IMG/VR virus record: IMGVR_UViG_3300006802_000048
Coordinates: 1 to 35,350 of that record
Origin: a virus
DNA length: 35,350 nt
Direction: 5' to 3' (one strand)
The position numbers and the translations under genes were made by a program. This document shows, piece by piece, positions 463 through 15,113 of the stretch. The notes beneath the pieces were generated by a model. It searched no databases and was not told where the DNA came from. It saw only the letters and a list, made by a program, of their open reading frames with translations. The first letter of the stretch is position 1, and each line of letters starts with the position of its first letter.

Positions 463-479
463 AGCCCCAACAACAAATA

Positions 480-854: not shown

Positions 855-867
855 GATGTGTTTGTAA

Positions 868-1588: not shown

Positions 1589-1766
1589 TCTTCCTCCGCT
1601 TCAGTTCATTGATTAAACCGCCAGCAGCCTGTGCAAGCATTTGTTCTACATCTGTCAAAACATCGTCATTCACTTGTTTTGATGAAAGCACGTCTAATGC
1701 ACTTAATACTAATTGGACGGATTCGTTGAAACTTCGCAACGTTGTTTCCTCCGTTCTAATTCCCAT
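1575..1766 (-). CDS. Small helical protein, unknown
   Basis: A 63-residue protein starting MGIRTEETTLRSF. The frame stays open further upstream, but the ATG at 1766 has a good ribosome site (GAAAGG, about 8 nt before) and the upstream extension overlaps the zinc-ribbon gene, so the short start is preferred. The sequence looks like two amphipathic helices with a basic end (LKRRKNAHL). It overlaps the SNase-fold gene by 14 bases and the zinc-ribbon gene by 58 bases. No family is recognised. Confidence 0.65.
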   Translation of the reverse strand: MGIRTEETTLRSFNESVQLVLSALDVLSSKQVNDDVLTDVEQMLAQAAGGLINELKRRKNAHL

Positions 1767-1897
1767 TGGCGCACCCTTTCTGCACAATTTTTGCACTTCC
1801 AGCGTTTTCCATTTACATAAAACTTCCATTCGCCACCTGCCTCTGGACGGTTTTTCATGCAATGGCTGCAAAACTTTGTTTGTTCATTCATGTTCAT
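1709..1897 (-). CDS. Small zinc-ribbon protein
   Basis: A 62-residue protein with two Cys-x2-Cys pairs: CSHC near the N-terminus and CKNC about 25 residues later, around a basic Trp-containing strand (WKFYVNGKRWKC). It ends in a charged helix (RVRQWELERRKQR). This is a classic zinc-ribbon layout; phage proteins of this type bind nucleic acid or a host protein partner. Starts at 1897 and 1891 are both possible, each overlapping the end of the upstream gene. The role is unknown. Confidence 0.72.
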   Translation of the reverse strand: MNMNEQTKFCSHCMKNRPEAGGEWKFYVNGKRWKCKNCAERVRQWELERRKQRCEVSTNPSN

Positions 1898-2111
1898 AAA
1901 GTTTGATCGCCCAATCAGGAAATTGTTTTCCAGAACTACACACGTCCCACCACACATCTCCATCATGCTCTGCGAATAGTGATGTGACCCCAGGTACTAC
2001 CTGCCATCCATTCTCATCATAAAATCGTGCTTCAATACTCCCAAACTCTGCATATCTGACCATGTACCACCCTGGGGATATTGGTTCAATATAAGCAGGC
2101 ATGGCTTTCAT
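1884..2111 (-). CDS. Unknown small protein, beta-rich
   Basis: A 75-residue protein rich in aromatic and acidic residues (PGWYMVRYAEFG, DGDVWWDVCSSGKQFPDWA), suggesting a compact beta fold. The ATG at 2111 lies one base after the upstream stop (TAA-C-ATG), with a GGGG run about 9 nt before it. I do not recognise a family. The acidic, Trp-rich surface would suit a protein-binding role, but that is a guess. Confidence 0.72.
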   Translation of the reverse strand: MKAMPAYIEPISPGWYMVRYAEFGSIEARFYDENGWQVVPGVTSLFAEHDGDVWWDVCSSGKQFPDWAIKLYEHE

Positions 2112-2112
2112 G

Positions 2113-2325
2113 TTATGCGCCCCAAACCATTTGGACTGGAATTGTTAGCAAACATACTGCCAACACCACCGAATCACGATCCATAGATAAAACCCACTTT
2201 TTGCCTAGTTTCAAAACGGATCTCACCCACGACTTCCTTGCATGAATAATTGATTTTCGGTCCGCGTAATCAGTTATTGGATAAAGCTTGATTGCTTTCC
2301 TTGCCAGTTTGTATTTTTCGTTCAT
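2113..2325 (-). CDS. Small basic membrane-associated protein, unknown
   Basis: A 70-residue protein starting MNEKYKLARKAIK. The frame extends upstream only through a TTG codon; the ATG at 2325 with AAAGGA about 7 nt before it is the better start. The N-terminal two-thirds is strongly basic and the C-terminus holds one hydrophobic segment (SVVLAVCLLTIPVQMVWGA) that could insert in the membrane. A basic domain plus a C-terminal anchor suggests a membrane-associated host-interaction factor. No family is recognised. Confidence 0.68.
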   Translation of the reverse strand: MNEKYKLARKAIKLYPITDYADRKSIIHARKSWVRSVLKLGKKWVLSMDRDSVVLAVCLLTIPVQMVWGA

Positions 2326-2342
2326 GGTTTTTTCCTTTGTTA

Positions 2343-2744
2343 TTACCAACCAAGCCGGGCCAATTCTTGCTCCATAATGACATGGAGCTCGTTTAATTCT
2401 TTTGCCAATCTGCCAAGTGAGATAACTTCAAAAGGTTGCATTTCAACAATGTAATCAACGTCACGAACAAAGAAAATGTTTTCTTGTGCAATGCGGCAAG
2501 CGGGCTCTGTTTCTGTGGATGTTGCGTCAAATTCCAAGTCGTTGATGAATTGATCTGAGCTCACATCGTTGTATTCCCAAGTGTTTTCATCATTGTTAAT
2601 AGAGATTGTGTTGTTGATATAACCGCCGCGATACCAATAAACAAATGCTTGTTCAAACTTTTTGCGCCCTGCATCCGTCAATTTCACGTTAGATACAAAG
2701 TAGCCTTCTGGCGTAACAATTTTGTTTGATTCAAGTGTTTGCAT
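2343..2744 (-). CDS. Unknown protein, first gene of second leftward operon
   Basis: A 133-residue acidic protein starting MQTLESNKIVTPEGYF. The ATG at 2744 has a textbook AAGGAG site 8 nt upstream and sits about 35 nt after the predicted transcription start of the promoter at 2785-2813. The first half looks beta-rich and acidic; the end is a helix (LAKELNELHVIMEQELARLGW). No domain is recognised. As the first gene behind a strong, operator-bearing promoter it is probably made early and abundantly. Confidence 0.78.
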   Translation of the reverse strand: MQTLESNKIVTPEGYFVSNVKLTDAGRKKFEQAFVYWYRGGYINNTISINNDENTWEYNDVSSDQFINDLEFDATSTETEPACRIAQENIFFVRDVDYIVEMQPFEVISLGRLAKELNELHVIMEQELARLGW

Positions 2745-2784
2745 GATGCAGCTCCTTGGTTTGTGTTGCGTTGTTGATGTCTGA

Positions 2785-2813
2785 ACTATACGCACAACGC
2801 GCGCAGGATGCAA
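2785..2813 (-). promoter_or_regulatory. Sigma70 promoter with palindromic operator
   Basis: On the minus strand, TTGCAT (2813-2808), a 17-nt spacer, then TATAGT (2790-2785). The spacer and the first two bases of the -10 box form a 17-bp imperfect palindrome (2789-2805; minus strand TGCGCGC-GTT-GTGCGTA). A palindrome of the same design in the same place is found in the promoter at 13493-13521, and a related one at 12700-12716. It drives the genes from 2744 to 480. Confidence 0.85.
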
Positions 2814-2852
2814 GCCTTTTTAACAACAAAATGTAAAAAAAGTGTTGATGCG

Positions 2853-2879
2853 ATAAAAAACCCGCCTTGTGAGCGGGTT
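2853..2879 (-). terminator. Rho-independent terminator (leftward)
   Basis: On the minus strand AACCCGC, a 7-nt loop and GCGGGTT form a 7-bp stem running into a T-run (complement of 2855-2860). It ends transcripts coming from the candidate RNA region and the VRR-NUC gene, just upstream of the promoter of the next operon. Confidence 0.9.
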
Positions 2880-3152
2880 AGTTGTTGGTGAAACAGGGCT
2901 TTCTTAACGCGCCATGACAGCGCCCCGCCCCGTAACGCCAACACGGCGGGACACTGGCGCAGAACCTTGCCGACGAAGCGGTTGCAGTTCCACTTGTAAC
3001 CAATGCCCCTGCGTGTTGGTTGTTGGTGGCCGGTGCTGATCTCCGGCTTGCGGCTTGACCCTGTAACCGCCAGTAAGCATTACGCATCAGCCTGCGCATT
3101 CACCAACACGGCTGAAGACTAACGGCGTTGCAACCTTGCGTACCGGATGCCA
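2853..3152 (-). ncRNA. Candidate structured non-coding RNA
   Basis: About 270 bases without a convincing gene lie between the VRR-NUC stop (3153) and the terminator. Read leftward the stretch folds well by eye. The complement of 3101-3108 (TGTTGGTG) can pair with that of 3021-3028, and alternatively with that of 2883-2890. The complement of 3012-3019 can pair with that of 2938-2945 (8 bp). A GCCGG/CCGGC hairpin and a GCGC/GCGC hairpin lie between. The 10-base word CCAACACGGC occurs at 2938-2947 and 3103-3112, giving competing partners. A frame at 2878-3099 covers the region but is Cys/Arg/Ser-rich and lacks a ribosome site. It could be a regulatory antisense RNA of the C4 kind, a processed 3' UTR, or a packaging or recombination site. 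Confidence 0.55.
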
Positions 3153-3503
3153 TCAATCCTCATGCGTTTTGGCGTAGGCAATAATCTGCCTTTGGGCATC
3201 TTCATTGCCTTTACCTACTATAACAAAATCGCCAATGCCCTGTAAGTAAAAATGCCAATCTTTTTGCTCTGGCGAGACTGCGCCGCCCTTGATGCGCTTC
3301 ATCTCAACCCAGGTTCGCCATGCCGGAATGTAAAGGTCTGGAACGCCCTTGGACACGCCCTCGGCCTTGAGTCGCCCGGCAACGCTTGGAGATCTAGCGC
3401 CGCCGTTGGGAATGGAGAAGATTCGCACGCCAGGGTAGGTCTGACGGAACCATCGGACAAACTCGCGTTGTTCTTCGTGCTCGGTGGGTATGCGCTCAGT
3501 CAT
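3153..3503 (-). CDS. VRR-NUC domain nuclease
   Basis: A 116-residue single-domain nuclease of the VRR-NUC family (PD-(D/E)XK superfamily, Holliday-junction-resolvase-like fold). The family pattern is clear: EEQREFVRWFR, IPNGGARS, LKAEGVSKGVPDLYIP with the metal-binding Asp, then VEMK as the E-x-K motif and SPEQKDWHFYL. Phage versions are thought to process branched DNA or flaps during replication and recombination. The ATG at 3503 has an AGGGG site and overlaps the upstream coiled-coil gene by 8 bases; the frame extends to 3536 without a better start. It is the last protein gene of the long early operon before the candidate RNA. Confidence 0.92.
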   Translation of the reverse strand: MTERIPTEHEEQREFVRWFRQTYPGVRIFSIPNGGARSPSVAGRLKAEGVSKGVPDLYIPAWRTWVEMKRIKGGAVSPEQKDWHFYLQGIGDFVIVGKGNEDAQRQIIAYAKTHED

Positions 3504-3672
3504 ATTCGCCCCTAAGCACTTTTTCGATTTCCTCAAGCTTTAGCTTAAGATCAACATTTTCCCACATCATTTTTCTGTAGTTATCCCATTGCTTTTCCGA
3601 TCTCTCGCGCTCGGCGGCAAGCAAGCGTTCGAGCCGCTCCATCTGTAACCGCTCTTTTTTCGTCATTGCCAT
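3496..3672 (-). CDS. Small coiled-coil protein
   Basis: A 58-residue protein starting MAMTKKERLQMERLERLL. Nearly all of it is one charged amphipathic helix with heptad-like Leu/Met spacing (RLERLLAAERERSEK, VDLKLKLEEIEKVL), so a coiled coil is likely. GGGGA lies about 9 nt before the ATG at 3672. It overlaps the methyltransferase-like gene upstream by 10 bases and the VRR-NUC gene downstream by 8. It may be a dimerising partner of one of these, which is inference only. Confidence 0.7.
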   Translation of the reverse strand: MAMTKKERLQMERLERLLAAERERSEKQWDNYRKMMWENVDLKLKLEEIEKVLRGEYD

Positions 3673-4235
3673 GATGGTTTTCCCCATTGCGTTGCCATCG
3701 CGTATGCGATGCCCTGATAAGTTTCGCTGCGCTTTTTCCATCTATCTGCGCTTGGCGGCATTTTGTGAATGCGTGCTTCGCGGCCATCAACGATGTTTGT
3801 CGGTTGAAGCAAAGGCAAACCTTTCAACCATAAACAAGTGGCCTTTGTTTCGCCATGCCCAAACTGCCATGGCTGGATGATCTGGTCAGGCTTACGAATG
3901 CGGCTTGATATGATGCTAATTGGATTCTCAAGAGCTATGCGCGGGATTGGCGCAGCAAGCAGAAGCCGCACAAAATCTAACGCTTCAGCTTGTTCTGCCT
4001 GTTTTTCTTTGAACCAGCGAGCACCAGACACGGCCAGATGCGTGCATGGGGGATGTGCAATCATCAAGTCCCATCCATCATTAAGAATGTCACGCACGTC
4101 CCCTTGATAATGAAAGCCCGGAACGTCAGTCGGCAATAAATCACAACTGACAGCGTAATGCCCTAACGATTGAAACGCATCCCTAACGCGGCCAGAATAT
4201 TCACAAGCCACTAAAATTTTCATTTTCATTGCCAT
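3663..4235 (-). CDS. DNA cytosine methyltransferase-like protein
   Basis: A 190-residue compact protein resembling C5-cytosine methyltransferases. ILVACEYSGRVRDAF matches the AdoMet-binding strand-loop, CDLLPT the acidic second strand, and AHPPCTHLAVSGARWF carries the Pro-Pro-Cys catalytic motif. ALENP stands where classic enzymes have ENV. A Trp/Lys/Thr stretch follows (FGHGETKATCLWLKGLP). It lacks room for a large target-recognition domain. This is a widespread phage family annotated as DNA methylase; it could protect the genome from restriction or modify nucleotides. No partner restriction enzyme is present. It overlaps the helicase gene by 10 bases. Confidence 0.8.
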   Translation of the reverse strand: MAMKMKILVACEYSGRVRDAFQSLGHYAVSCDLLPTDVPGFHYQGDVRDILNDGWDLMIAHPPCTHLAVSGARWFKEKQAEQAEALDFVRLLLAAPIPRIALENPISIISSRIRKPDQIIQPWQFGHGETKATCLWLKGLPLLQPTNIVDGREARIHKMPPSADRWKKRSETYQGIAYAMATQWGKPSWQ

Positions 4236-5809
4236 AATCTAGTCAGTACCCTGTAAAATTTGCCGTCTTGTTTGTAAGTGATGATAGCCGGTGCAGCGCC
4301 CTTATTCATTGCATCGGCTATACCATCAAGCGATGATTCCTCAGTGTTGGGCGCGCGGCTTTTCCTCTTTGCCTCTACAAGCCTTTCAAGTGCCTTCTGT
4401 CCTGCGTAGCCTTCGTGGTTGATAGGCAAGTATTCAGTGATAGGCTTATCGCTCAGAGCCCCGTAATACGTCACGGCGAGCATTTCCTTTCCCGATGCCT
4501 TGCTCACATGCTTGCGCCAGTTCCATTCGGTAACCTCAAGCTCCTGCGCTTCAATCCCCATAATGTCATCGGTGTGCAGATGAAACTTTTTTGGACTTGG
4601 TGCCGGGAACTCAGCGCCACATGCCGGACACTTACGAGCTGAGATCGGGCAAAGTTCGTTGCATGTATCGCACACCTTGACTGGTGCCTCGCCTTCGCCC
4701 GATCCCGCTTTCTTCGGTGGTTGCACCGCAGTGATAGGACCGTGAGTCTGCACCACTCCAGCAAAATCCAGCACCAAACAATGATCGGTGTGGCTCTTTG
4801 GCCTCATGCCGCGCCCAGCCATCTGCACATAAAGACTCGGCGACATGGTTGGGCGGAGCATGGCGATCAGGTCAATGTCCGGGTAATCAAAGCCGGTCGT
4901 TAACACATTGGCATTGGTCAATGCACGGATTCTGCCGGCCTTAAACTCCGAAAGAAGTGCGGCGCGTTCAACTTTTGGCGTGTCACCAGTCACGCAAGCC
5001 GCAGCGATACCGTACCCTTGCAATACCTCTGCAACGTGTTGAGCGTGGGCCACGCCAGTACAGAAAAACAGCCAGGCTTTGCGATCTTCGGCCCTAGCGA
5101 TTACCTCACGTACCACAGCATGATTCTGATCGTCGGTATCAACGGCGCGTTGTAGATCGGCCTCAATGTATTCACCGCCGCGCTTCTTGACCTTAGACAC
5201 GTCGAGCCGCGCACCCGTTACTTTGCTCCGCAGCTTTGACAGGTAGCCTCGAAATACCAACTCCTCGATGCTAACAGGCTCAATCAGGTCGGCAAAGATT
5301 GCCGGCGCGTCGGTGATTAGGCCATGCCCAAGGCGATAAGGCGTAGCAGTAAGCCCAACCACTCGCAACGCCGGGTTTATGGCTTGAAGCTCGGCCAGGA
5401 AGGTGCGATATCCGCCTTCGTCGTTGTGGCTCACAAGGTGGCATTCGTCGATCAGCACCAGGTCTATATGCCCGATTTCCTGCGCCTTGGTGCGGATAGA
5501 CTGGATACCGGCAAACGTAATAGGCTCGCCTAAGTCTTTCCGACCGATACTGGCCGAATAAATCCCCATTGGCGCACCCGGCCAGTGCTGGCGCATCTTT
5601 TCGGCGTTCTGCTCGATCAACTCTTTAACATGCGTGAGCATCAGCACCCGAGTCTGCGGCCACTTTTGCAGGGCATCTTTGCACAGCGCCGCGACAATAT
5701 GGCTCTTGCCTGAGCCAGTCGGCAGCACCAGGCATGGGTTGCCCTCGTTCCCTGCTGCAAACCATGCATAAAGCTGGTCAATTGTGCGTTGTTGATAGTC
5801 ACGAAGCAT
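4226..5809 (-). CDS. SF2 DEAD/DEAH-type helicase with zinc ribbon
   Basis: A 527-residue superfamily 2 ATPase. Walker A PTGSGKS is near residue 32, a DECH box (LVLIDECHLV) near 125, GLTATPYR is motif III-like, and motifs V/VI are TTGFDYPDID and QMAGRGMR. About residue 385 a CDTC...CPACG zinc ribbon follows, then a C-terminal region seen in phage helicases of this kind. It should unwind or remodel DNA during replication or recombination using ATP. The start is the ATG at 5809 with TAGGGA just upstream; an in-frame TTG at 5824 is less likely. It lies between nuclease genes of the recombination module and overlaps the methyltransferase-like gene. Confidence 0.93.
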   Translation of the reverse strand: MLRDYQQRTIDQLYAWFAAGNEGNPCLVLPTGSGKSHIVAALCKDALQKWPQTRVLMLTHVKELIEQNAEKMRQHWPGAPMGIYSASIGRKDLGEPITFAGIQSIRTKAQEIGHIDLVLIDECHLVSHNDEGGYRTFLAELQAINPALRVVGLTATPYRLGHGLITDAPAIFADLIEPVSIEELVFRGYLSKLRSKVTGARLDVSKVKKRGGEYIEADLQRAVDTDDQNHAVVREVIARAEDRKAWLFFCTGVAHAQHVAEVLQGYGIAAACVTGDTPKVERAALLSEFKAGRIRALTNANVLTTGFDYPDIDLIAMLRPTMSPSLYVQMAGRGMRPKSHTDHCLVLDFAGVVQTHGPITAVQPPKKAGSGEGEAPVKVCDTCNELCPISARKCPACGAEFPAPSPKKFHLHTDDIMGIEAQELEVTEWNWRKHVSKASGKEMLAVTYYGALSDKPITEYLPINHEGYAGQKALERLVEAKRKSRAPNTEESSLDGIADAMNKGAAPAIITYKQDGKFYRVLTRLWQ

Positions 5810-5820
5810 GTTTTTCCCTA

Positions 5821-6273
5821 TCAAGGATTGCCAGAGTTATCCTGTTGCGCTTGTGATTCACTTGGGGTCTTCTTAATGCAAAACATTCCAGCAACAAACG
5901 CCACGATGCATGCGCCTACAAAAGCAGCGCCTATTGGTAGAGCCATTGCCATAACAGTTAATGCCGGGATAAACAGGCTTGCGCCAATTGCTGCTAAAAC
6001 GGCGCCAAACTTTTGAAGTTTGGTTTTTTGTGCTGGCAGATCAACTGGACGGTGAACAATTCTTAAAGTCGGTCTTTCTTGATTCATTCTCGGCACCCTT
6101 TCTGGCATCTGTGTTCTTAAAGTTATTTCTAAAATCCGCGCGTTAATTGTTGGCTCAAGAGGGGGCGCAATCTCATCAATACGAAACAACCGTAAATCTG
6201 ATGTTGGCGCTTCCGCATGCGGCGCATTTACTCTAGGGATATCAATTGGTCTTGATCTGTTAATTTGAATCAT
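5821..6273 (-). CDS. Two-TM membrane protein, unknown
   Basis: A 150-residue protein with a polar, Pro/Arg-rich N-terminal region of about 85 residues, followed by two close hydrophobic helices (around residues 88-130: FGAVLAAIGASLFIPALTV and IGAAFVGACIVAFVAGMF) and a short polar tail. This is a hairpin membrane anchor with a cytoplasmic N-terminal domain. It starts four bases inside the nuclease gene and ends 11 bases before the helicase ATG. A membrane protein inside a recombination operon is unusual; it may tether replication proteins or alter the host membrane. No family is recognised. Confidence 0.75.
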   Translation of the reverse strand: MIQINRSRPIDIPRVNAPHAEAPTSDLRLFRIDEIAPPLEPTINARILEITLRTQMPERVPRMNQERPTLRIVHRPVDLPAQKTKLQKFGAVLAAIGASLFIPALTVMAMALPIGAAFVGACIVAFVAGMFCIKKTPSESQAQQDNSGNP

Positions 6274-7283
6274 TTCACAATCCTCCCGCCGTCTTTTCTA
6301 ATTTCTTCAATAAAATCATCAGGATTCGCGCACATTGATGGATTCGCCAGAATTTCTTTACTGGTGAATGTGGTTTCGTTCGGCTCACCGTTTGCCACAT
6401 CTTTACCGTCAATTACATAAACGGCAGTCATGGCGTCCGGACCTTCCTTGATTTGCCAAGGCACCAAGTCAGGATGCAGCACGTGGCCCTCGCATCCGGT
6501 GCGTTGATATTCAACTGGAACGGATGCATCACCATGTCTGGCGCAAGTGAATTCGTTGTCAGATGTGGCGGTAGAGTGCGCGCAAGTTCGACAATTCACT
6601 TCTTTTGTGGTGTTCGTCTTGTGGCAAAACTCATGTGCCGGGCAGTACTTGCATTGATACCAGCTCGGATCGGCGCTCAATGGCTCTGGCATACGGTCTA
6701 ACAAAGCAATTCGCTTGCCTCGTTCGACTAACGAATTGGCAATTTGTGCATTAAAGCTGACATGCTCAACCCAGATCCGGTCATCGTCCTTGCAGATGGC
6801 AACGTATAAGGCGCGGTCAATTTTGGTGCCCAGCATATAAGCCTGCATTTGTGCGTAATGCATTGGCTTAGACTTTTCAACACCGTTATCCTCTAAGTGA
6901 TCAAATGACTTTTTAGAGTGCGTCTTAAACTCGACAACGTATCGTTTGCCGTCGCCAAAAGGCACGCCGCATTCTGCGATGCCATCGACTGAACCAGAAA
7001 CATGGCATCCAAAATCAACTTTGCTTTGCGCTTTGCCAGTGCGTTGAATATCAATGCCAATAGCGCGCAGGTCATTGATTAACGTTTGTTCCTCAAGTTG
7101 CCCACGACGAAACAAACGAAGAATGCGGCCAGGGAATTTTTCAATTACGGCCCAGCGAAACGATAACCAAAGCCAGCGATCACACGGGTGCCCCAACATT
7201 GACGCGCCAAGATGAGGGCGCGGAGGTTCCTGGCGATCTTCGTGGGCCTTGTCTATCAGCTCTTCAATGGTGTATTGTGTCAA
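6270..7283 (-). CDS. PD-(D/E)XK exonuclease with Fe-S-type cysteines
   Basis: A 337-residue RecB/Cas4-like nuclease. Motifs in order: GHPCDR (residues 31-36), GSVDGIAE with Asp100, VVEFKTHS with the E-x-K pair Glu118/Lys120, and QMQAY near 145. Cys34 together with CKYCPAHEFC near 209-218 matches the four-cysteine iron-sulfur staple of AddB and Cas4. A second cysteine group follows (CRTCAHS, TCARHG, GCEGH), perhaps a zinc site. It probably resects DNA ends for the Sak4-like recombinase. The start is TTG at 7283 with an AGGAG site 6 nt before it, a rare start that may keep its level low. Confidence 0.9.
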   Translation of the reverse strand: MTQYTIEELIDKAHEDRQEPPRPHLGASMLGHPCDRWLWLSFRWAVIEKFPGRILRLFRRGQLEEQTLINDLRAIGIDIQRTGKAQSKVDFGCHVSGSVDGIAECGVPFGDGKRYVVEFKTHSKKSFDHLEDNGVEKSKPMHYAQMQAYMLGTKIDRALYVAICKDDDRIWVEHVSFNAQIANSLVERGKRIALLDRMPEPLSADPSWYQCKYCPAHEFCHKTNTTKEVNCRTCAHSTATSDNEFTCARHGDASVPVEYQRTGCEGHVLHPDLVPWQIKEGPDAMTAVYVIDGKDVANGEPNETTFTSKEILANPSMCANPDDFIEEIRKDGGRIVK

Positions 7284-7310
7284 CGTATTCTCCTGTCTGT
7301 GAGTGAATTG

Positions 7311-7339
7311 GCCCAGCCTATTGGCTGGGCTTCTTTTTT
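7311..7339 (+). terminator. Rho-independent terminator pointing against the operon
   Basis: GCCCAGCC, a TATT loop and GGCTGGGC form an 8-bp perfect stem followed by TTCTTTTTT, all on the plus strand. The genes on both sides run leftward, so on the coding transcript the hairpin has its A-run in front and should not terminate. It could stop antisense transcription rising into the operon or be a stabilising hairpin between the two messages. Confidence 0.85.
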
Positions 7340-7344
7340 ACTGT

Positions 7345-7863
7345 TTACTTCCTGGCCCAAGGAGGCGCAGCACCGTCGGCCTTCGGTGCAGCAGTAGGTT
7401 TTGGAAACGAAGGAATGGAGCTGGCGGGCATGGCATCGCCGGAAGCTTTAAACCCCTTAACGTCATTGCTTGCCTCATATGTCTTGCCGGTTGCTTCATC
7501 GGTACGGGCCTCACGCACATCCAGTTTGATCGACAAGCTGCCGCCAACCAGTTGATCTGTGTCAGTAAGCTTCGCCAAGCCAATTGCCCGCATCAATTCG
7601 CCAAGTTGCGCGCGCCCAATGCTTTCAGCTTTTTCCGACTTGTTTTTGATGTTCAGGTTCCCAAACACCACACGACCTTGGTGCGTCGGGCCAGTCACGT
7701 CATAACGAACAGCAATGTATTGGCCGGTTCCGTCTTTGGTATTGCGCAACTCGGCTTTGTTGATGGTTACTTGATACCAACCTGCTGGCAACGGTTTGAA
7801 ATCGCCGTCGCCAGTAGATTCAGGCAGGTCATCGAGGCTGATTGCATGTTCAAGAAAAGCCAT
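7345..7863 (-). CDS. DUF669 family protein, ssDNA-binding-like
   Basis: A 172-residue protein of the phage DUF669 family. The family core is visible: LPAGWYQVTINKAELRNTKDG, YIAVRYDVTG, GRVVFGNLNIKNKSEKAESIGRAQLGEL. A low-complexity Pro/Ala tail ends PPWARK, reminiscent of SSB tails that contact partner proteins although it lacks the acidic tip. Members sit beside Sak4/Erf-type recombinases and are thought to coat single-stranded DNA. The ATG at 7863 has GGAGA about 8 nt upstream. The neighbouring recombinase and exonuclease support the role. Confidence 0.85.
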   Translation of the reverse strand: MAFLEHAISLDDLPESTGDGDFKPLPAGWYQVTINKAELRNTKDGTGQYIAVRYDVTGPTHQGRVVFGNLNIKNKSEKAESIGRAQLGELMRAIGLAKLTDTDQLVGGSLSIKLDVREARTDEATGKTYEASNDVKGFKASGDAMPASSIPSFPKPTAAPKADGAAPPWARK

Positions 7864-7865
7864 GA

Positions 7866-8261
7866 TTATTTCTCCAGTGTGATTTGAAATGATGGGCGTG
7901 AAGATGAAACGGTAACTGCATCGGCCAATAGTGAGGTGATCTGCGGCGCGGTGGCCTTCCACGCCGTGAGGTTGATTTCAGGTTTCCAGCGAAACAGACT
8001 AGACAGGTGTTCGGTCAGGCCATGCTCGGCGGCTAGTTCCTGCACCTTGTCGGCATCAACCTTGCGGGTAAGCCGCCCGGTGATTTTGATCTGGTGGCCG
8101 GTGAGCGTCTTGGCGTTGAAGGTGCCTTCCATCTGCTCACCGATGGCAAAGGCTTTGATAAGTTCATCTTCAACCGCTCGGCGGGCTTCCACTGCCATGC
8201 GTTCTGCTTCTTTGGCCTGAAGCCAAGCTTCAGAAAGCTCAAACAGTTTTGCTTCGATCAT
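7866..8261 (-). CDS. Unknown protein of recombination operon
   Basis: A 131-residue protein starting MIEAKLFELSEAW. A long N-terminal helix (about 1-45, charged, coiled-coil-like) is followed by an alpha/beta part with GHQIKITGRLTRKVDADKV and a C-terminal FRWKPEINLTAWKATAP. Similar proteins accompany DUF669/Sak4 genes in many phages, suggesting a recombination accessory role, but no enzyme motif is visible. The ATG at 8261 has AAGGGGA upstream and overlaps the preceding small gene as ATGA; the longer open frame to 8462 has no good start. Confidence 0.78.
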   Translation of the reverse strand: MIEAKLFELSEAWLQAKEAERMAVEARRAVEDELIKAFAIGEQMEGTFNAKTLTGHQIKITGRLTRKVDADKVQELAAEHGLTEHLSSLFRWKPEINLTAWKATAPQITSLLADAVTVSSSRPSFQITLEK

Positions 8262-8434
8262 TTGTTTCCCCTTTCTGCCATCATCGCATCGGCCATCATG
8301 TAACACTGAGTTGCTACCATTTCTTCCCACTCCATGTCTGCATTGACCGCATCGCGGTCGGTGGTGTTTTCGAGGAAATATCGCATTACAAGCCCGGCAA
8401 AGTAGTCGCGTAGGTTGATGTCGTTTTCGTTCAT
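8258..8434 (-). CDS. Small acidic phage protein (58 aa)
   Basis: A 58-residue frame starting MNENDINLRDYFAGLVMRYF and ending MMADAMMAERGNK. The ATG at 8434 has a strong AGGAG 7 nt upstream and overlaps the upstream stop as ATGA; its own stop overlaps the next ATG the same way. The pattern LRDYFA...A..CY.MADAM.AER is typical of a widespread family of tiny phage proteins. No function is known. Confidence 0.85.
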   Translation of the reverse strand: MNENDINLRDYFAGLVMRYFLENTTDRDAVNADMEWEEMVATQCYMMADAMMAERGNK

Positions 8435-8691
8435 TGTTTTTCTCCTGTTGCTTTAAAAACAACTGACTTTGCTTCGTCGATCACGTCTGATTTTCCGATC
8501 AGCATGTCGCTTAACTTAATCAGTTTTTGCAATGCCTCCAGTAGCTCAGGTGCAGCGGCAATCAGGCGGGCGTCATTTGCATTGTTTGGATTTCCGCTTC
8601 CATAAGTGCAATTGGCAATTACTTTTTCGGTTTTGGTTTCAATTATTTGATAATCATTGTGTTCCCACGGCCCCGGCGTGTGCTTGCTCAT
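8431..8691 (-). CDS. Small conserved phage protein (HTPGPW type)
   Basis: An 86-residue protein starting MSKHTPGPWEHNDYQI with NANDARLIAAAPELLEALQKL in the middle. The HTPGPW start and the NARLIAAAPELLEAL helix are hallmarks of a very common small phage protein family of unknown function. It is linked by ATGA overlaps to the Sak4-like gene upstream and the 58-residue gene downstream; a GGGGGG run lies just before its ATG. Confidence 0.88.
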   Translation of the reverse strand: MSKHTPGPWEHNDYQIIETKTEKVIANCTYGSGNPNNANDARLIAAAPELLEALQKLIKLSDMLIGKSDVIDEAKSVVFKATGEKQ

Positions 8692-9365
8692 TTTTGCCCC
8701 CCAATCTTCGCAATGATCTCGCCCAAGTCAGGCGCTTCCCAAGCTGACAACTTGCCGGAACGATCTTTTGCCAGCCATGCACCGTCACCGTCACACATCA
8801 GGGCGCGCTGGCTTTGGCCTTCGGCATCCTTCTCCACGCGCAGGGCCAACACTTCGTCAAAGAAATACGGCAGGCTTTGAGAGAGCGTCTTGCCAGGCAT
8901 GCTCGGTCCATACATCACCTTGCCCATTTCGTCTTGGAGCTTTTCCAGCTTGGCCGACATATAAACATGCAAGCCGGGTAGGTCGCGAAACGAACGGATA
9001 AGATCGGTCATGGTGCTGTTCATCTCGCCATAAGCCGCACGCCCGTCCTTGGTGGCTTTCTTCTCGGCATTCAGGACAACCTCGGCCACTTCAGAAATGC
9101 TATCCAGCGCCACCGATTGAAATGCTTTTGCTTCGGCGCTGTCGCGCAGCCAAACGTAGGCTTCGCGCAGATCGTCCATTGAGCCGATCTCGATATAAGG
9201 CACGTCGGCATCAGCGATTGACAGCAAGCCGCCTTCCGCCGACAGCACCACCGGGTTCGGAAGTGTTTTAATAAGGCTGGTTTTGCCCGCGCCTGCTTGC
9301 CCATACACAAGCAATTTGACGCCATCAGCAGCTAACGCGCTGCTACGCTTTAAATTAATTGCCAT
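8688..9365 (-). CDS. Sak4-like single-strand annealing recombinase ATPase
   Basis: A 225-residue RecA-fold ATPase of the phage AAA_24/Sak4 group. Walker A GQAGAGKTS is at residues 22-30, followed by VVLSAEGGLLSIAD. The Walker B-type strand is SVALDSISEVAE, and VYMSAKLEKLQDEMGKVMYGPSMPGKTLSQSLPYFFDEVLAL is read here as separate helix-strand pieces. Sak4 proteins promote pairing of single-stranded DNA with an SSB partner. Nearby are a DUF669 SSB-like protein, an exonuclease, a helicase and a resolvase-type nuclease, forming a full recombination set. The frame starts directly after the small leader gene. Confidence 0.88.
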   Translation of the reverse strand: MAINLKRSSALAADGVKLLVYGQAGAGKTSLIKTLPNPVVLSAEGGLLSIADADVPYIEIGSMDDLREAYVWLRDSAEAKAFQSVALDSISEVAEVVLNAEKKATKDGRAAYGEMNSTMTDLIRSFRDLPGLHVYMSAKLEKLQDEMGKVMYGPSMPGKTLSQSLPYFFDEVLALRVEKDAEGQSQRALMCDGDGAWLAKDRSGKLSAWEAPDLGEIIAKIGGQK

Positions 9366-9545
9366 TTAAATTTTCTCCTCTGTGGTTTTAGCAATAACGG
9401 CGCGGGCGGCTTTAATTGCTTTTGAAAGATCGCCGCAAATTTGACCATCAGGGCGCACGTTGTTAATTACAACCAGCGCGGCAGTTGCCGCGTTTTCCAA
9501 TGAATTGAGAGCATCCAATAGTGCGGCAAAATTGTTTGTGTTCAT
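9366..9545 (-). CDS. Small unknown protein, first leftward gene
   Basis: A 59-residue helical protein starting MNTNNFAALLDALNSLENAA. The ATG at 9545 has a clear AGGAG 7 nt upstream and is about 50 nt from the predicted start of the leftward promoter. It is the first early product of this arm and is followed at once by the Sak4-like gene. Ala-rich amphipathic helices suggest a small helical bundle. No family is recognised. Confidence 0.75.
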   Translation of the reverse strand: MNTNNFAALLDALNSLENAATAALVVINNVRPDGQICGDLSKAIKAARAVIAKTTEEKI

Positions 9546-9595
9546 TTTTTTACTCCTATCTGTCTGCACCGTCGGCCATTCCGTTCGTGCAGTGG

Positions 9596-9624
9596 TTGTA
9601 CTATAGCAAGCAATCTGCTAGATT
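9596..9624 (+). promoter_or_regulatory. Rightward early promoter
   Basis: TTGTAC (9596-9601), 17 nt, TAGATT (9619-9624), facing and overlapping the leftward promoter. It would drive the HTH regulator at 9668 and the primase-helicase. Two polymerases could not occupy both promoters at once. Confidence 0.7.
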
Positions 9625-9628
9625 GCAA
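9600..9628 (-). promoter_or_regulatory. Leftward early promoter
   Basis: On the minus strand, TTGCAA (9628-9623), 17 nt, TATAGT (9605-9600): a near-consensus sigma70 promoter for the 9545-to-3153 operon. Its -35 box and spacer contain the 17-bp palindrome at 9610-9626. Confidence 0.85.
9610..9626. promoter_or_regulatory. Palindromic operator between divergent promoters
   Basis: A perfect 7-bp inverted repeat with a 3-bp centre, GCAATCT-GCT-AGATTGC. It covers the -10 box of the rightward promoter and most of the -35 box and spacer of the leftward one. The nearest regulator gene is the HTH protein 40 bases to the right, a natural candidate ligand. Confidence 0.75.
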
Positions 9629-9667
9629 CAACGCAATGAAATTTTTTTAACAAACAAGGATAAAAAC

Positions 9668-9847
9668 ATGACACTTGAAGACATCCGAGCAGCCTTGCAG
9701 GATCGGAAGATTTCGGTGGTGGCGAGGGCTACGGCTATCCATCCGAACACGATCCGCAGCATTTTGAATGACCAAGAAGCAAACCCGACGCACCGAGTAA
9801 TCAAGGCCTTGTCTGACTACCTGAGCGGCGGGGTGCGGAATGGCTGA
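9668..9847 (+). CDS. Small HTH regulator (Cro/XRE-like)
   Basis: A 59-residue protein that is almost only a helix-turn-helix: LEDIRAALQDRKISVVARATAIHPNTIRSILNDQEANPTHRVI, in which helix 3 (HPNTIRSIL) would read DNA. Its length fits Cro-type regulators that act as dimers. The ATG at 9668 has AAGGA 8 nt before it and follows the divergent promoters, so it may autoregulate and switch between the two arms. Its stop overlaps the primase-helicase start by 8 bases. No partner CI-size repressor is visible. Confidence 0.85.
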   Translation: MTLEDIRAALQDRKISVVARATAIHPNTIRSILNDQEANPTHRVIKALSDYLSGGVRNG

Positions 9848-11864
9848 CCTCACAAAGATACTTGGCGGCCCCTGGTCGCCACCTCCCGCACCTACCTACG
9901 CCCCGCCAGAAGTGCAGTTCCGCGAGGCGATGCTATCTGCGGGCGTGTCGCCACCTGACGAGATTATTCTGGATGGCCAGATTCGCCGGTTTCGCCCAGA
10001 TCCAAAAAAGCACGACCGCTCGGGCTGGTATGTTGGTCACGCAGATGGAATCTGCACCATGGTGTGGGGCGATTGGCGGCAAGGTATAGAGCAGACAATT
10101 AAGGCAGAAACTGGCAAAAAATGGACCGTAGCCGATGAAATGGCCCACGTCGCTAGAGTTGCCGCAGCCAAAGCCGCTCGTGACCTGGAGCGTAAGAAAC
10201 AAAACGAAGCCGCGGCGAGCACCGTAGAAATTATCTGGTCTGAAGGCGCGGCTGCCAGTCCTGAGCATCCTTACTTAAAGCGCAAAGGCATTCAACCACA
10301 CGGCGCCAAAATTACTGGCGACGGGCGCCTTATGGTGCCGCTTTTTGACTCAGACGGCGCGCTTGCCAGCTTGCAGTACATCGATGCCGATGGCGGCAAA
10401 CTTTACCACCCAGGTGGCAGCGTAAGCGGCAAATTTTGCATGCTTGGGACATTAGACGCGCCAGGTGTCTTATATGTTGCCGAAGGCTTCGCCACAGCAG
10501 CCACCATCCATGAGGTAAGCGGCAGGCCAGTCGTGGTGGCTTATAGCGCCAGTAACTTAGTGCCAGTCACCGGCACCCTGCGTGATTTGTACGGCCAGAA
10601 CCAAGACATTGTAATCGTGGCCGATAACGATGCGAGCGGGGTGGGCCAAAAGTACGCCGAGCAAGCCTGCGCCAAGTATGGGTCACGCATGGTCATGCCT
10701 CCAATCCAAGGCGATGCCAATGATTATGCGCAGGCAGGGCATGACTTGGCAGGGATGTTAAATCCTCAAGCCGATAAAAAAATGTTGGATAAATTAAAGG
10801 TTGTTTTTGGCGATGGCCTATCAACCGACTACGAAGCCCCGAATGAGCTGGTCGAGGACTTCATGACTATAGGCGGCATGGCGGTGTTGTACGGAGACAG
10901 CAACAGCGGCAAGACGTTTTTTGCCTTGTCTCTCGCCGCCCACATTGCATCAGGCCAAGAGTTTTTCGGTCGCCAGATCGATCCCGGCCTAGTGGTGTAT
11001 TTAGCCAGTGAAGCCCCTGGGTCAATCCGCTCTCGCATGCAGGCCATTAAAAAGCATTTCGGATGCAGTCTGGAAAACCTGGCGATGGTGCCAGTCCCGC
11101 TTAATTTCTACGCTAACCAAGGCGATGCAAACGACGTCATCGAACTGGTCAAGACAATCGAAGAAATAAAAGGCCAGCCCGTCCGTTTAATTATTGGTGA
11201 CACCCTGGCACGCATGAGCGCAGGCGCTAACGAAAATAGCGGTGAGGACATGGGGCCAGTCATGGCAAGGTTTGATGCAGTCGCCACAGCAACAGGAGCA
11301 GCAATTTTAATCATTCACCATAACGGCAAAGATCAAGCCAAAGGCGCCCGCGGTTGGTCAGGGATTCGGGCGCATATTGATACTGAAATTGAAGTGATGG
11401 AAAAGGATGGCATTAGATCCGCCACTATCACCAAGCAAAGAGAATTACCAGGTAAAGGCCAGGTTATATATTTCCGTCTTGAAGTGGTTGAGATGGGTGT
11501 AACTAAGTTTGGCAAACCCGCAACCACTTGCGTTGCCGTGCCAGATGAAACCGCCAGCTCAGAACAGCCTTATAAAACACAAAGCCAACACGATGAGAAT
11601 GTTAGGGTATTAGAACGAGCATGGTTTTATGCCAAAGCAGAATTTATCGAAGATCAGCCATATATAAGCAAGTCTGCTTTTGTCGATTTTCTTACTCAAC
11701 AAGGTTATACATATAAACAAGCAGAAGATGAGGCCAATCCTACGAAGCAAAATAAGATTATTAGCAGGCTTATAAACGCTGAAATTATCACCCCAAAACG
11801 CTATGGCTGGGTGGTCATTGACTCCATCACAGCCAGCGCCATGTCACTCAGGGCCAAAAATTGA
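9840..11864 (+). CDS. Fused primase (Toprim)-helicase, RepA-like
   Basis: A 674-residue replication protein. The N-terminal part has WGDWR and a charged linker helix. A Toprim-like primase domain spans about 150-305: PYLKRKGIQPHGA, LYVAEGFATAATIHE with the catalytic Glu, and VIVADNDASGVG with the DxD pair. The C-terminal AAA_25/RepA-like helicase domain has Walker A GDSNSGKTF (about 355), Walker B LIIGDTLARM and IIHHNGKD. A wing-like C-terminal region (about 590-670) may bind DNA. It would prime and unwind at the origin. The origin-like repeats follow directly. The window encodes no DNA polymerase, so host polymerase III probably completes the fork. Confidence 0.93.
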   Translation: MADLTKILGGPWSPPPAPTYAPPEVQFREAMLSAGVSPPDEIILDGQIRRFRPDPKKHDRSGWYVGHADGICTMVWGDWRQGIEQTIKAETGKKWTVADEMAHVARVAAAKAARDLERKKQNEAAASTVEIIWSEGAAASPEHPYLKRKGIQPHGAKITGDGRLMVPLFDSDGALASLQYIDADGGKLYHPGGSVSGKFCMLGTLDAPGVLYVAEGFATAATIHEVSGRPVVVAYSASNLVPVTGTLRDLYGQNQDIVIVADNDASGVGQKYAEQACAKYGSRMVMPPIQGDANDYAQAGHDLAGMLNPQADKKMLDKLKVVFGDGLSTDYEAPNELVEDFMTIGGMAVLYGDSNSGKTFFALSLAAHIASGQEFFGRQIDPGLVVYLASEAPGSIRSRMQAIKKHFGCSLENLAMVPVPLNFYANQGDANDVIELVKTIEEIKGQPVRLIIGDTLARMSAGANENSGEDMGPVMARFDAVATATGAAILIIHHNGKDQAKGARGWSGIRAHIDTEIEVMEKDGIRSATITKQRELPGKGQVIYFRLEVVEMGVTKFGKPATTCVAVPDETASSEQPYKTQSQHDENVRVLERAWFYAKAEFIEDQPYISKSAFVDFLTQQGYTYKQAEDEANPTKQNKIISRLINAEIITPKRYGWVVIDSITASAMSLRAKN

Positions 11865-11870
11865 TTGTTG

Positions 11871-12040
11871 CCCGCTACAGCAAAAAGCATGACTACTAAG
11901 AAAAAAAACTTTACCGCTAAGAAAAAAAAATGTAATCTCAATTAAAGTTTTGTTCTGTAGAGGCAAAGAAAAGAGTGGTAGCGAGCAAGAAAATGAATGT
12001 AGCGGTCAAGAAAATTGTTGTAGCGTGCAAATAAAATTGA
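11871..12040. repeat. 21-bp-phased iteron and A-tract array, candidate origin
   Basis: Four units begin at 11957, 11978, 11999 and 12020, exactly 21 bases apart. Each starts GTAGCG (GTAGAG in the first), then CAA and a run of A. Three related units at 11871, 11892 and 11913, also 21 apart, carry CCGCTA/ACTACTAAG-type words and A-runs. CCGCTAC at 11872 is the reverse complement of GTAGCGG at 11999. A-tracts repeated every two helical turns should bend the DNA. Regularly spaced repeats beside a helicase gene and before a winged-helix gene fit a replication origin. Confidence 0.72.
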
Positions 12041-12056
12041 CGCCTACGAAGTATAA

Positions 12057-12078
12057 GTGTAACGTAAGTGTAACGTAA
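12057..12078. repeat. 11-bp tandem repeat
   Basis: GTGTAACGTAA occurs twice head-to-tail with no gap, about one helical turn per unit, between the iteron array and the GC-rich hairpin. Its end overlaps the hairpin's first arm. It may be a second protein-binding site in the origin region. Confidence 0.75.
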
Positions 12079-12122
12079 GACTTCGTCCGCGCGCGCGATG
12101 CGCGCTGCGGACATCGTCTTAC
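12075..12122. other. Long imperfect GC-rich inverted repeat
   Basis: GTAAGAC (12075-12081) pairs with GTCTTAC (12116-12122), GTCCGC with GCGGAC, and GCGCGC with GCGCGC around a GAT centre, with a 3-nt mismatch and one bulge. No T-run follows, so it is a poor Rho-independent terminator. It could be a cruciform in the origin or a hairpin in the leader of the gene at 12139, whose ribosome site starts nine bases later. Confidence 0.75.
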
Positions 12123-12138
12123 AAACTAACAGGGGGAT

Positions 12139-12699
12139 ATGATGGAGATGGATTACAAGAAGTGCGTGGAAATTTTGAGGTGGCACGCTTTGTATTCTGA
12201 TTTGAATGGCACAGAAGCAAAAGTGCTTATGCTGATGGTTACGAATGCCAATTATAAGACAGGTGTTTTTGTTGGCAGTCAGATGGAGATTGCAGAGTTA
12301 ATAGGCTCGTCAAAGCAATCAGTTAATAAGGCTATTGCTGAATTGCAAAGAATGGAGGCAATTGTTGAAACTAAATTAGGTAAAGGCCGAATGCCATCGG
12401 CTTATAAGATCAGGGCAAATGAAGATTTGGACATTTTGTTTAGAAAGACAGAAAAGAATCAGGCAAGAGAAGAGTGGTATGCAGAAAGAGAAAACTTGTT
12501 TGGTGGAATAGAGGCAAAGATGTATGAAATTTGCGAAGGGTGTGAAGACTGCACAGAAAAGGTGGTGTGCGAAAGATGTACGTTTAGGATGAATGAGTAC
12601 AAAAAACGGGAAGACTACAGGAGACTCATGTTATGGGAGGCGGACAATCCAAAGCCACCAATGATGGTGGAAACGATTAGAGGTCGTCGCGCTGTCTGA
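12139..12699 (+). CDS. Winged-helix protein, candidate replication initiator
   Basis: A 186-residue protein. Residues 20-95 form a winged helix-turn-helix: TEAKVLMLMVTNANYKTGVF, then SQMEIAELIGSSKQSVNKAI as the HTH and a wing with GKGRMPSAYKI. The C-terminal part is charged and contains a cysteine cluster, CEGCEDC...CERC, probably a zinc site. This resembles RepL and other phage/plasmid initiator or MarR-like domains. It follows the iteron array and hairpin directly and has a strong AGGGGG ribosome site. Binding to the iterons and loading the helicase is a reasonable inference; a transcription regulator is the alternative. Confidence 0.78.
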   Translation: MMEMDYKKCVEILRWHALYSDLNGTEAKVLMLMVTNANYKTGVFVGSQMEIAELIGSSKQSVNKAIAELQRMEAIVETKLGKGRMPSAYKIRANEDLDILFRKTEKNQAREEWYAERENLFGGIEAKMYEICEGCEDCTEKVVCERCTFRMNEYKKREDYRRLMLWEADNPKPPMMVETIRGRRAV

Positions 12700-12719
12700 T
12701 ACGCACAATGTGCTAAGAT
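12700..12719 (+). promoter_or_regulatory. Promoter-like site with operator palindrome
   Basis: TACGCAC-AAT-GTGCTAA (12700-12716), then TAAGAT as -10 (12714-12719). It matches the palindromes at 13501-13517 and 2789-2805. The -35 region (around 12691-12696) is poor, so this may be a weak or activated promoter. It begins right after the stop of the winged-helix gene and precedes the short leader frame and TerS. Confidence 0.6.
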
Positions 12720-12725
12720 GAGATC

Positions 12726-12794
12726 ATGATTACTGTTCTAGTTTGTGTTGCGGTACTTTATTTTTGCGCTTGGTTGGAGGATCAACAATCATGA
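12726..12794 (+). CDS. Possible 22-residue hydrophobic leader peptide
   Basis: ATG at 12726 opens a 22-codon frame, MITVLVCVAVLYFCAWLEDQ plus two residues. Its first 17 residues are hydrophobic, like a single short membrane segment, and its stop overlaps the TerS ATG as ATGA. The TerS ribosome site (GGAGG) lies inside this frame. It may be a coupling leader, a tiny membrane protein, or chance. Confidence 0.4.
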   Translation: MITVLVCVAVLYFCAWLEDQQS

Positions 12795-13240
12795 CGGCGA
12801 GATTGGCATCAAGAAAATATGATCGTGATGCGGTGTCAGAAATTGTATTGGAAGAAATGCAGAATGGATTAAGCACATTTAAAGCGTGTCAAAAAGCCGG
12901 GGTTCCGCATAATACTTTTATTAGATGGGTTGGGGAAAATAAGGAGCTAGCGGACAAATACGCGCGCGCCAGAGAAGATTTAATTGAAAGAATGGCGCAA
13001 GAGATAATGGAAATAGCAGATTCCCCAGTACCTACCACAGATAGTGGCGCAACTGATTCTGGGGCGGTTCAAGATAAACGGGTTCGAATTGATACTAGAA
13101 AATGGTTGTTATCAAAACTCGCGCCTAAGAAATATGGCGATAAATTGGAGCTATCTGGAGATGCAAATAATCCAATTACCATTGCCAAAATCGAGCGAGT
13201 CGTTGTCGACGGACAAGCAAAACGGATCGAAGATGAGTGA
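12791..13240 (+). CDS. Terminase small subunit (Sf6-like)
   Basis: A 149-residue DNA-recognition subunit of the packaging motor. The N-terminal HTH (TFKACQKAGVPHNTFIRWVGENKELADKYARAR, read as two helices) binds the pac site, followed by the oligomerisation helices (ERMAQEIMEIADS) and the signature RVRIDTRKWLLSKLAPKKYGDK shared with the Sf6 gp1 family. The ATG at 12791 has GGAGG about 10 nt upstream; an earlier in-frame start at 12743 would ignore it. Unusually, the large subunit lies 2.65 kb downstream. A pac site may lie within or near this gene, but none can be read off. Confidence 0.92.
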   Translation: MTARLASRKYDRDAVSEIVLEEMQNGLSTFKACQKAGVPHNTFIRWVGENKELADKYARAREDLIERMAQEIMEIADSPVPTTDSGATDSGAVQDKRVRIDTRKWLLSKLAPKKYGDKLELSGDANNPITIAKIERVVVDGQAKRIEDE

Positions 13241-13487
13241 TATAGACAACACATTGAAAGAGCGTGGCGCTAGGTACGGAGATTTCAGAAGCCATGCCGA
13301 AATCAGCCAAATGTTGAAGTCTTTGGTGCTTGACCATGACGCACAGCTTGCTCCGTACCAAGCAGAAGCGCTTGAAATGATCTGCCATAAACTTGCGCGA
13401 ATTGTTAACGGCGACCCAAATTACGCGGACTCTTGGAGAGACATCGCAGGATATGCGCAGTTAGTTGTGCGAGAACTTGAACGATAA
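13233..13487 (+). CDS. DUF6378-like phage protein
   Basis: An 84-residue helical protein starting MSDIDNTLKERGARYGDF. The pattern R-x-x-x-YGDF...H(A)...MICHKLARIVNGDPNYADSWRDIAGYAQLV matches the DUF6378 family common in phages, whose His/Lys/Asp spacing resembles MazG-like all-alpha phosphohydrolases. A nucleotide pool role is possible but unproven. It starts 8 bases inside TerS and is the last gene before the promoter of the small-gene cassette. Confidence 0.78.
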   Translation: MSDIDNTLKERGARYGDFRSHAEISQMLKSLVLDHDAQLAPYQAEALEMICHKLARIVNGDPNYADSWRDIAGYAQLVVRELER

Positions 13488-13492
13488 AACAC

Positions 13493-13521
13493 TTGACATC
13501 TGCGCACGATGTGCGTATTAT
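13493..13521 (+). promoter_or_regulatory. Strong sigma70 promoter with palindromic operator
   Basis: TTGACA (perfect -35, 13493-13498), 17-nt spacer, TATTAT (13516-13521). The spacer plus the first two bases of the -10 box form TGCGCAC-GAT-GTGCGTA (13501-13517), nearly palindromic. The layout is the same as in the promoter at 2785-2813. It would drive the small-gene cassette and perhaps TerL and the structural genes. Confidence 0.88.
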
Positions 13522-13558
13522 TCAGGTTGTCAGCACATCACAACTACAGGAGATCGAC

Positions 13559-13720
13559 ATGGGTTACTTTTCATATCGTCAAATGGGAAACGCCACTTTA
13601 ATCGTGACGCACGCGCCAGATGGCGAAGAGATTGAGTATCAGGTTCAAACGTCAAACGGCATGCGCTCCTGCTACTTTGATCGGCGCGACCATGCAGAAG
13701 CTATGGCAAAGGCATGCTAA
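13559..13720 (+). CDS. Small unknown protein (53 aa)
   Basis: A 53-residue protein starting MGYFSYRQMGNATLIVTH, first gene behind the strong promoter. AGGAG lies 8 nt before the ATG. It looks like a small beta sheet (ATLIVTHAPDGEEIEYQVQ) with an Asp/Arg-rich end (YFDRRDHAEAMAKAC). No family is recognised. Its position predicts high early expression. Confidence 0.78.
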   Translation: MGYFSYRQMGNATLIVTHAPDGEEIEYQVQTSNGMRSCYFDRRDHAEAMAKAC

Positions 13721-13905
13721 TGAAACTTGCAAATGACTACATGCAGTTAGCACTAACAAGCGTTTTGGCAGCAGCGGCACGTGGCGACATTGACCTAAAC
13801 CAATTGGCGAGGGAAGAGCTGCTTAAAAGAGGCGTAAACGCCAATGGCGAATGGATCGGATTTGAAGAAGCAAGGCGCATAAGACTCTTGGAGCGTAATG
13901 GATAG
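13720..13905 (+). CDS. Small conserved phage protein (61 aa)
   Basis: A 61-residue helical protein with LAAAARGDIDLNQLAREELLKRGVNANGEWIGFEEARRI. The phrase LAREEL..RG...G.W.GF..A is common in tiny unknown phage proteins. The start at 13720 overlaps the upstream stop (TAATG) with AAAGG upstream; an ATG two codons earlier is possible. It overlaps the next gene by 8 bases. Confidence 0.82.
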   Translation: MKLANDYMQLALTSVLAAAARGDIDLNQLAREELLKRGVNANGEWIGFEEARRIRLLERNG

Positions 13906-14089
13906 CCCTACCCCTCAACAAGTGCGCGAAATCCGCTCTAAGGCGGGTTTAAGCGCGTCCAAAGCCGCGGCACTGATATATCGCAGCACCCGAAACTGGC
14001 AGCAGTGGGAGCTTGGCGAGCGAAAGATGTGCCCGGCATTGTTCGAACTATTTTGCATGAAGGTTAAAAATGAACGATCCGTCGATTGA
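13898..14089 (+). CDS. XRE-type HTH protein
   Basis: A 63-residue HTH-only protein: TPQQVREIRSKAGLSASKAAALIYRSTRNWQQWELGERKMCPALFELF. The pattern LSASKAAALI-RSTRNWQQWE is a Cro/C1-type HTH with a Trp-rich recognition helix, a common small phage regulator. Being encoded in the cassette driven by a palindromic-operator promoter, it is a plausible ligand of the TRCGCAC..GTGCGTA palindrome. It overlaps the following gene by 20 bases. Confidence 0.83.
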   Translation: MDSPTPQQVREIRSKAGLSASKAAALIYRSTRNWQQWELGERKMCPALFELFCMKVKNERSVD

Positions 14090-14231
14090 TCTGGTGCTGC
14101 TTAAAAAGCTATGCAACGAACTACAGCGTGAGCTTGCTTACTCCCAAGCGGACACAGATGCAGTGGCGCGGTTGGCGCGAGACGTGGAGTACTTGGCGGG
14201 CCGCATGATTGCATGGGCGGGTGGGGAATAA
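14070..14231 (+). CDS. Small helical protein (53 aa)
   Basis: A 53-residue protein starting MNDPSIDLVLLKKLCNEL and ending MIAWAGGE. It starts inside the HTH gene and its TAA overlaps the next ATG (TAATG), matching the coupling style of its neighbours. It is a short amphipathic helical protein, perhaps coiled-coil. No family is recognised. Confidence 0.7.
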   Translation: MNDPSIDLVLLKKLCNELQRELAYSQADTDAVARLARDVEYLAGRMIAWAGGE

Positions 14232-14596
14232 TGAGCATCGAAGCCATGAAACAGGCGCTTGAGGCGTTGGACAGTAAGCATGACATGACCAAAGCTGAAT
14301 GGCGCGTACTTCAATATCGCGCTTTCAACGCCCTCCGCGCCGCGATAGCCGAGGCAGAAAAGCAGGAGCCGTTCGCGTGGATGATACTAAACAGTTTGGG
14401 TGATGATGAAGGCATTACATATTACCAGCCATCGGGAGATCTGCTTCCCGGTTGGGCATATAAGCCTATTTACACCCACCCACCTCGCCGCGAGTGGGTT
14501 GGGCTGACGGATGAGGATATGGCGTTGTGTGAGTCTGAGGAGGATGTGCAATTTGTTCGCGCCATTGCAGCCAAGCTGAAGGAGAAGAACTCGTGA
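14231..14596 (+). CDS. Small conserved phage protein with YTHPPRREWVGLTDE motif
   Basis: A 121-residue protein: an N-terminal helical part with MKQALEALDS and ALRAAIAEAEKQEPFAWM, a middle PSGDLLPGWAYKPIYTHPPRREWVGLTDEDMA, and a C-terminal helix. The EKQEPxAW, LYTHPPR and WVGLTDE words recur in many mosaic phage small proteins of unknown role. The start was chosen from the TAATG overlap at 14231. Confidence 0.82.
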   Translation: MSIEAMKQALEALDSKHDMTKAEWRVLQYRAFNALRAAIAEAEKQEPFAWMILNSLGDDEGITYYQPSGDLLPGWAYKPIYTHPPRREWVGLTDEDMALCESEEDVQFVRAIAAKLKEKNS

Positions 14597-14970: not shown

Positions 14971-15113
14971 CCAAAGAAGAAATGCTGAGCATCATGCGCT
15001 TGCTGTCCGCACTTGAGGCCGTAAGTCTGTACCGTGAGCCTGCGATCTCGTCTTACTTGGTAGAGCAGATTGACAGCGCAGTTGCGATATTGGAGAGGGA
15101 GATACTGAAATGA
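14967..15113 (+). CDS. Small helical protein (48 aa)
   Basis: A 48-residue frame, MTKEEMLSIMRLLSALEAVS to LEREILK, joined to the genes on both sides by ATGA overlaps. It is likely two amphipathic helices. No family is recognised; the overlaps and the lack of any gap support it being translated. Confidence 0.7.
   Translation: MTKEEMLSIMRLLSALEAVSLYREPAISSYLVEQIDSAVAILEREILK

Follow-up and report, generated by a model that had tools for sequence, protein, structure and literature searches.

Aca10-type operators at three promoters of an uncultured phage and their probable regulator

An uncultured phage carries the same 17-bp palindrome at three promoters on both arms of its genome, and this palindrome is real, beyond what chance would give. 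The DNA analysed, called the window here, is the 35,350-nt stretch formed by positions 1-35,350 of IMG/VR record IMGVR_UViG_3300006802_000048, in which the first ~126 bases (window 1-126) recur as a direct repeat in the last ~130 bases, suggesting a complete genome. Judged from its sequence, the previously unrecognised operator is of the Aca10 type. We consider it highly probable that the small HTH protein encoded at 13898 is an Aca10-family autorepressor, which would bind the three operators (A, B and C) and shut off all three promoters. The sites, their conservation, the Aca10 homology and the site-gene association were computed; binding, repression and timing we infer. What appears to be new is one Aca10-type autorepressor over three promoters, not one acr-aca operon.

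Three promoters share a 17-bp operator

The layout of the three sites is as follows:

2785..2813, minus strand: promoter A, TTGCAT-17-TATAGT, read from the sequence, upstream of the left small-gene cassette
2789..2805, minus strand: operator A, TGCGCGCGTTGTGCGTA, supported by sequence, conservation and an outside-matrix score of 21.5
2859..2879, minus strand: hairpin resembling a terminator, with TTTT after it, immediately upstream of promoter A
12700..12716, plus strand: operator B, TACGCACAATGTGCTAA, overlapping the -10 box TAAGAT upstream of the terminase small subunit (TerS) gene, outside-matrix score 15.6
13493..13521, plus strand: promoter C, TTGACA-17-TATTAT, an 11/12 match to sigma-70
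13501..13517, plus strand: operator C, TGCGCACGATGTGCGTA, supported by sequence, conservation and an outside-matrix score of 23.6

All three palindromes of the original prediction were confirmed at these positions. At A and C the dyad ends on the first two bases of the -10 box, as had been described, but it occupies only 15 of the 17 spacer positions and not the whole spacer. Likewise, the description of two strong promoters holds for C (TTGACA at 13493-13498, TATTAT at 13516-13521), the top sigma-70 match within positions 1-16000, but less well for A (TTGCAT at 2813-2808, TATAGT at 2790-2785), whose -35 hexamer matches sigma-70 at only 3/6 bases. The promoter at operator B has only a weak -35 box. 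The hairpin upstream of promoter A would part the cassette behind it from the leftward early operon.

For the statistical evaluation, a scoring matrix was built solely from sites that lie in viruses and genomes other than this phage. With this matrix, operators C, A and B were the top three sites in the window, the fourth-best scoring 5.8. Across 200 Markov-1 simulations, scores reached at most 18.4 for the best site and 12.3 for the third-best. The significance of the sites rests on these scores; a post-hoc count of motifs allowing three mismatches or fewer gave 8 observed against 6.2 expected sites and is not significant alone.

A motif search of the genome and its relatives, the latter being contigs found by protein similarity, located the palindrome at the same promoters, where the original prediction needed it to be kept. 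Of 25 informative left-arm contigs, 24 retain site A, nearly all of them in the form TTGCATnn-TGCGNNC-N3-GTGCGTA-TAnnnT. At B, most relatives carry two abutting operators, nACGAACAATGTACAA then CGAACAATGTGCTA, the latter overlapping the -10 box, and the window has retained only the second of them. Site C is present at 19 of the 29 loci with an aca gene. The other ten, roughly one in three clade loci, comprise two that are too short to judge and eight with no site-C-like dyad within 1.1 kb. In at least four of these eight (L007, L010, L015 and L021) B operators lie upstream of aca, which may therefore be read from B there.

The HTH protein 13898 is an Aca10 homolog

The proposed regulator is encoded within the operon behind promoter C:

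13898..14089, plus strand: Aca10-like HTH protein of 63 aa, proposed binder and autorepressor, from homology to PDB 7XI5 and a fold model

Both sequence and structure prediction identify 13898 as a homolog of Aca10. Against 7XI5, its nearest match in both sequence and fold, it gave a phmmer E-value of 7.8e-14 as a single sequence and 5.8e-27 as a profile, with 46% identity in the fold alignment, and its AlphaFold2 model (pLDDT 94.9) superimposes on 7XI5 with an rmsd of 0.5 A and a TM score of 0.96 by target length. Matches to Pfam HTH_31 (19.7 vs 27 bits) and, weakly, to the VC1465 Xer-activation-factor family stayed below cut-off. A tblastn search of 13898 against annotated phages gave no match, so there are no annotated neighbour genes to borrow from.

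Aca10 of Pseudomonas citronellolis is encoded in the operon acrIC7-acrIC6-aca10, its structure is 7XI5, and it has been studied at single acr-aca promoters (PMC9410881). Its minimal site comprises 19 bp, ATACGCTCATTGAGCGTAT, inside TTGCAA-N16-TATTCT, with the 17-bp core TACGCTC-ATT-GAGCGTA (PMC9410881). This core lies within the -35/-10 spacer, in the same frame and promoter place as the window sites, and its ATT centre recurs in many of the sites found here; operator C also shares the arrangement of an inverted repeat inside the core promoter of the regulator's own operon. Both proteins belong to a homologous family of ~65-aa HTH dimers, and the residues corresponding to R44 and Q37, two DNA contacts of Aca10, are kept in 13898 (R42 in place of R44) and invariant across 20 homologs. 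In contrast, the contact residue Q22 is replaced by A in the window clade, and arm position 6 is A or G in the three window sites and T in the tested Aca10 site. A coupling of this arm position with residue 22 is unsupported, as L227 combines Q22 with an A-type arm. A further difference is that P. citronellolis has a single operon with two known acr genes, whereas the window has three promoters on both arms, TerS among the targets, no known acr gene and aca in third place of its operon.

Homology and operator likeness thus single out 13898 among the candidates originally listed, and it is most likely the binder of the 17-bp dyad. One regulator for all three promoters, as first proposed, remains the best reading of the shared operator and the Aca10-like gene.

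The operator accompanies Aca10-like genes in other phages and bacteria

Contigs were fetched from the viral set by DNA pattern alone, with the reversed pattern as control. An Aca10 homolog was encoded in 9 of the 109 contigs fetched in this way and in 0 of 52 reversed-pattern contigs, counts that overstate the independent cases since several of the 109 are near-copies and not all are independent lineages. Every contig with a promoter-spacer site scoring at least 9 encodes an Aca10 homolog, UViG_3300034692_000006 among them.

In a de novo search, the regions upstream of homologs from beyond the window clade were examined for 17-bp dyads of whatever sequence within a promoter spacer. Such dyads, nearly all of the same type as the window operator, were found upstream of 9/20 viral and 15/20 bacterial-genome homologs, compared to 2/514 viral control segments. 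Antisense (0/20) and downstream (0/19) controls of the viral set were empty; the bacterial-genome antisense control gave 6 hits, the probable reason being that dyads which start and end with TA score on either strand. Some Aca10-like genes in both sets have no site within 1.5 kb.

The 44-kb contig UViG_3300034692_000006 (L060, L076, L103) carries five near-identical operator-promoters, TTGCAC-17-TATACT, with aca as second gene behind one of them; five window proteins other than 13898 were searched against it and gave no match. In an Elioraea MAG (L338), the Aca10-like gene is preceded by TTGACA-16-TATAAT enclosing the exact published 17-bp Aca10 core. Among the bacterial contigs, five from genomes labelled Rhodocyclaceae, Rhodocyclales or Sulfuritalea (L342, L344, L346, L347, L349) have TACGCGCAATGCGCGTA as a perfect dyad 50 bases ahead of Aca10-like genes. 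A second flavour of operator, AACACTCAATGAGTGTA, stands 68-90 bases upstream of such genes in L334, L339, L340, L341 and L345.

Target genes and proposed circuit

The genes behind the three promoters are:

480..2744, minus strand: cassette A, eight small genes behind promoter A, largely of unknown function
12791..13240, plus strand: TerS gene, first after operator B (PHROG 1482, Pfam Sf6_terminase)
13559..15890, plus strand: cassette C, some ten small genes largely of unknown function, with the Aca10-like regulator third

The gene at 1265-1588 in cassette A is SNase-like. Gene content in cassettes A and C varies among relatives more than that of the core genes, and comparison of the cassette proteins with Pfam, NCBIfam and PHROGs revealed no known acr family. 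No clear terminator separates promoter C from TerL, so repression of C could also touch the packaging genes.

In the proposed circuit, a dimer of 13898 would bind the dyad (consensus TRCGNNC-N3-GNNCGTA) in the -35/-10 interval of promoters A, B and C, thereby blocking host RNA polymerase. Early in infection, before 13898 builds up, the promoters would fire and give a burst of small-gene cassette products; later 13898, made from operon C itself, would shut off A, B and C together. Such a burst followed by shut-off is likely by analogy, because other Aca proteins repress (PMC9410906) and a comparable shut-off has been proposed for SIRV2 (PMC11065993). The other Aca families, for which autorepression was demonstrated in E. 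coli reporters, also place an inverted repeat in the core promoter, but they use other HTH families and repeats and were studied as single acr-aca promoters (PMC9410906). In the archaeal virus SIRV2, Aca8 is proposed to shut off early genes after their early expression; one common promoter sequence likewise precedes scattered small early genes at both genome ends, whereas the promoters are of the archaeal TATA/BRE kind, the protein is a wHTH protein and 11/13 early genes are involved instead of three promoters (PMC11065993).

Alternative binders and functions

Lambda-type CI and Cro likewise bind as HTH dimers to 17-bp dyads whose arms are 7 bp long, as predicted here, but the operator sequence is unrelated; moreover, no lysogeny switch is evident in the window phage, and no tyrosine integrase was found in its record. 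A switch of early genes by the Cro-like protein encoded at 9668, acting through the shared operator, was considered, since this small HTH protein is conserved in the clade and adjoins divergent early promoters. We reject it as the binder and regard this reading as very improbable: no pattern-fetched contig that carries the operator encodes a homolog of 9668, unrelated ones included, and the control region of 9668 itself has another dyad. This second perfect 17-bp dyad, GCAATCT-GCT-AGATTGC, is shared by the divergent promoters at 9569-9668 before the gene; it is exact in the window and L023 alone, and L006, L020 and L025 have near-copies. The winged-helix protein at 12139, another of the original candidates, is disfavoured, because among the relatives only L006 has a homolog, and nearly all of those with the operator lack one. 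A long GC-rich hairpin, GTCCGCGCGCGCGATGCGCGCTGCGGAC, lies at 12082-12124 between the primase gene and 12139 and is also found in L006. Similar operators in bacterial genome contigs could mean that the phage borrows a host operator bound by a host factor, yet those sites stand upstream of Aca10-like genes, and across unrelated phages the site tracks a phage-borne gene; we give this explanation very little weight. Even less credible is the view that a promoter was duplicated by chance and that the dyad has no regulator. Promoters A and C are indeed identical at 26 of 36 bases and short dyads are common, but the dyad is retained despite sequence drift in relatives and accompanies the Aca10 gene in unrelated phages.

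A different kind of alternative accepts binding by 13898 and competes only with the anti-defence reading: the protein could be a general timing switch that turns early promoters off when packaging begins. TerS among the targets speaks for it, as does the lack of a known acr gene in the cassettes in the three databases named above, and aca-like genes often occur without acr genes (PMC9410906). On the other hand, accessory anti-host genes would be expected to be small, variable and largely of unknown function, and cassettes A and C fit this picture. We regard the timing switch as a serious contender with somewhat less than an even chance. Homology of 13898 to Aca10 alone does not make its neighbours anti-CRISPR genes, and the view of the cassettes as anti-defence genes is conjectural.

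Implications of the proposed Aca10-type regulon

With 13898 as an autorepressor of all three promoters, the regulon would tie the shut-off of the cassettes to the packaging gene TerS. The chances are nearly balanced, leaning slightly against, that Aca10-type repressors run dispersed multi-promoter regulons on both genome arms and that their operator marks anti-defence cassettes. Finding anti-defence genes by way of a regulatory sequence has already been done for archaeal viruses (PMC11065993). The proposed multi-promoter regulon, conserved in this phage clade, together with the five operators in an unrelated phage, may offer a handle at the level of regulatory sequence on the anti-defence genes of bacterial phages; if the idea is true, new anti-defence genes would come to light when uncultured phages are scanned for the operator.
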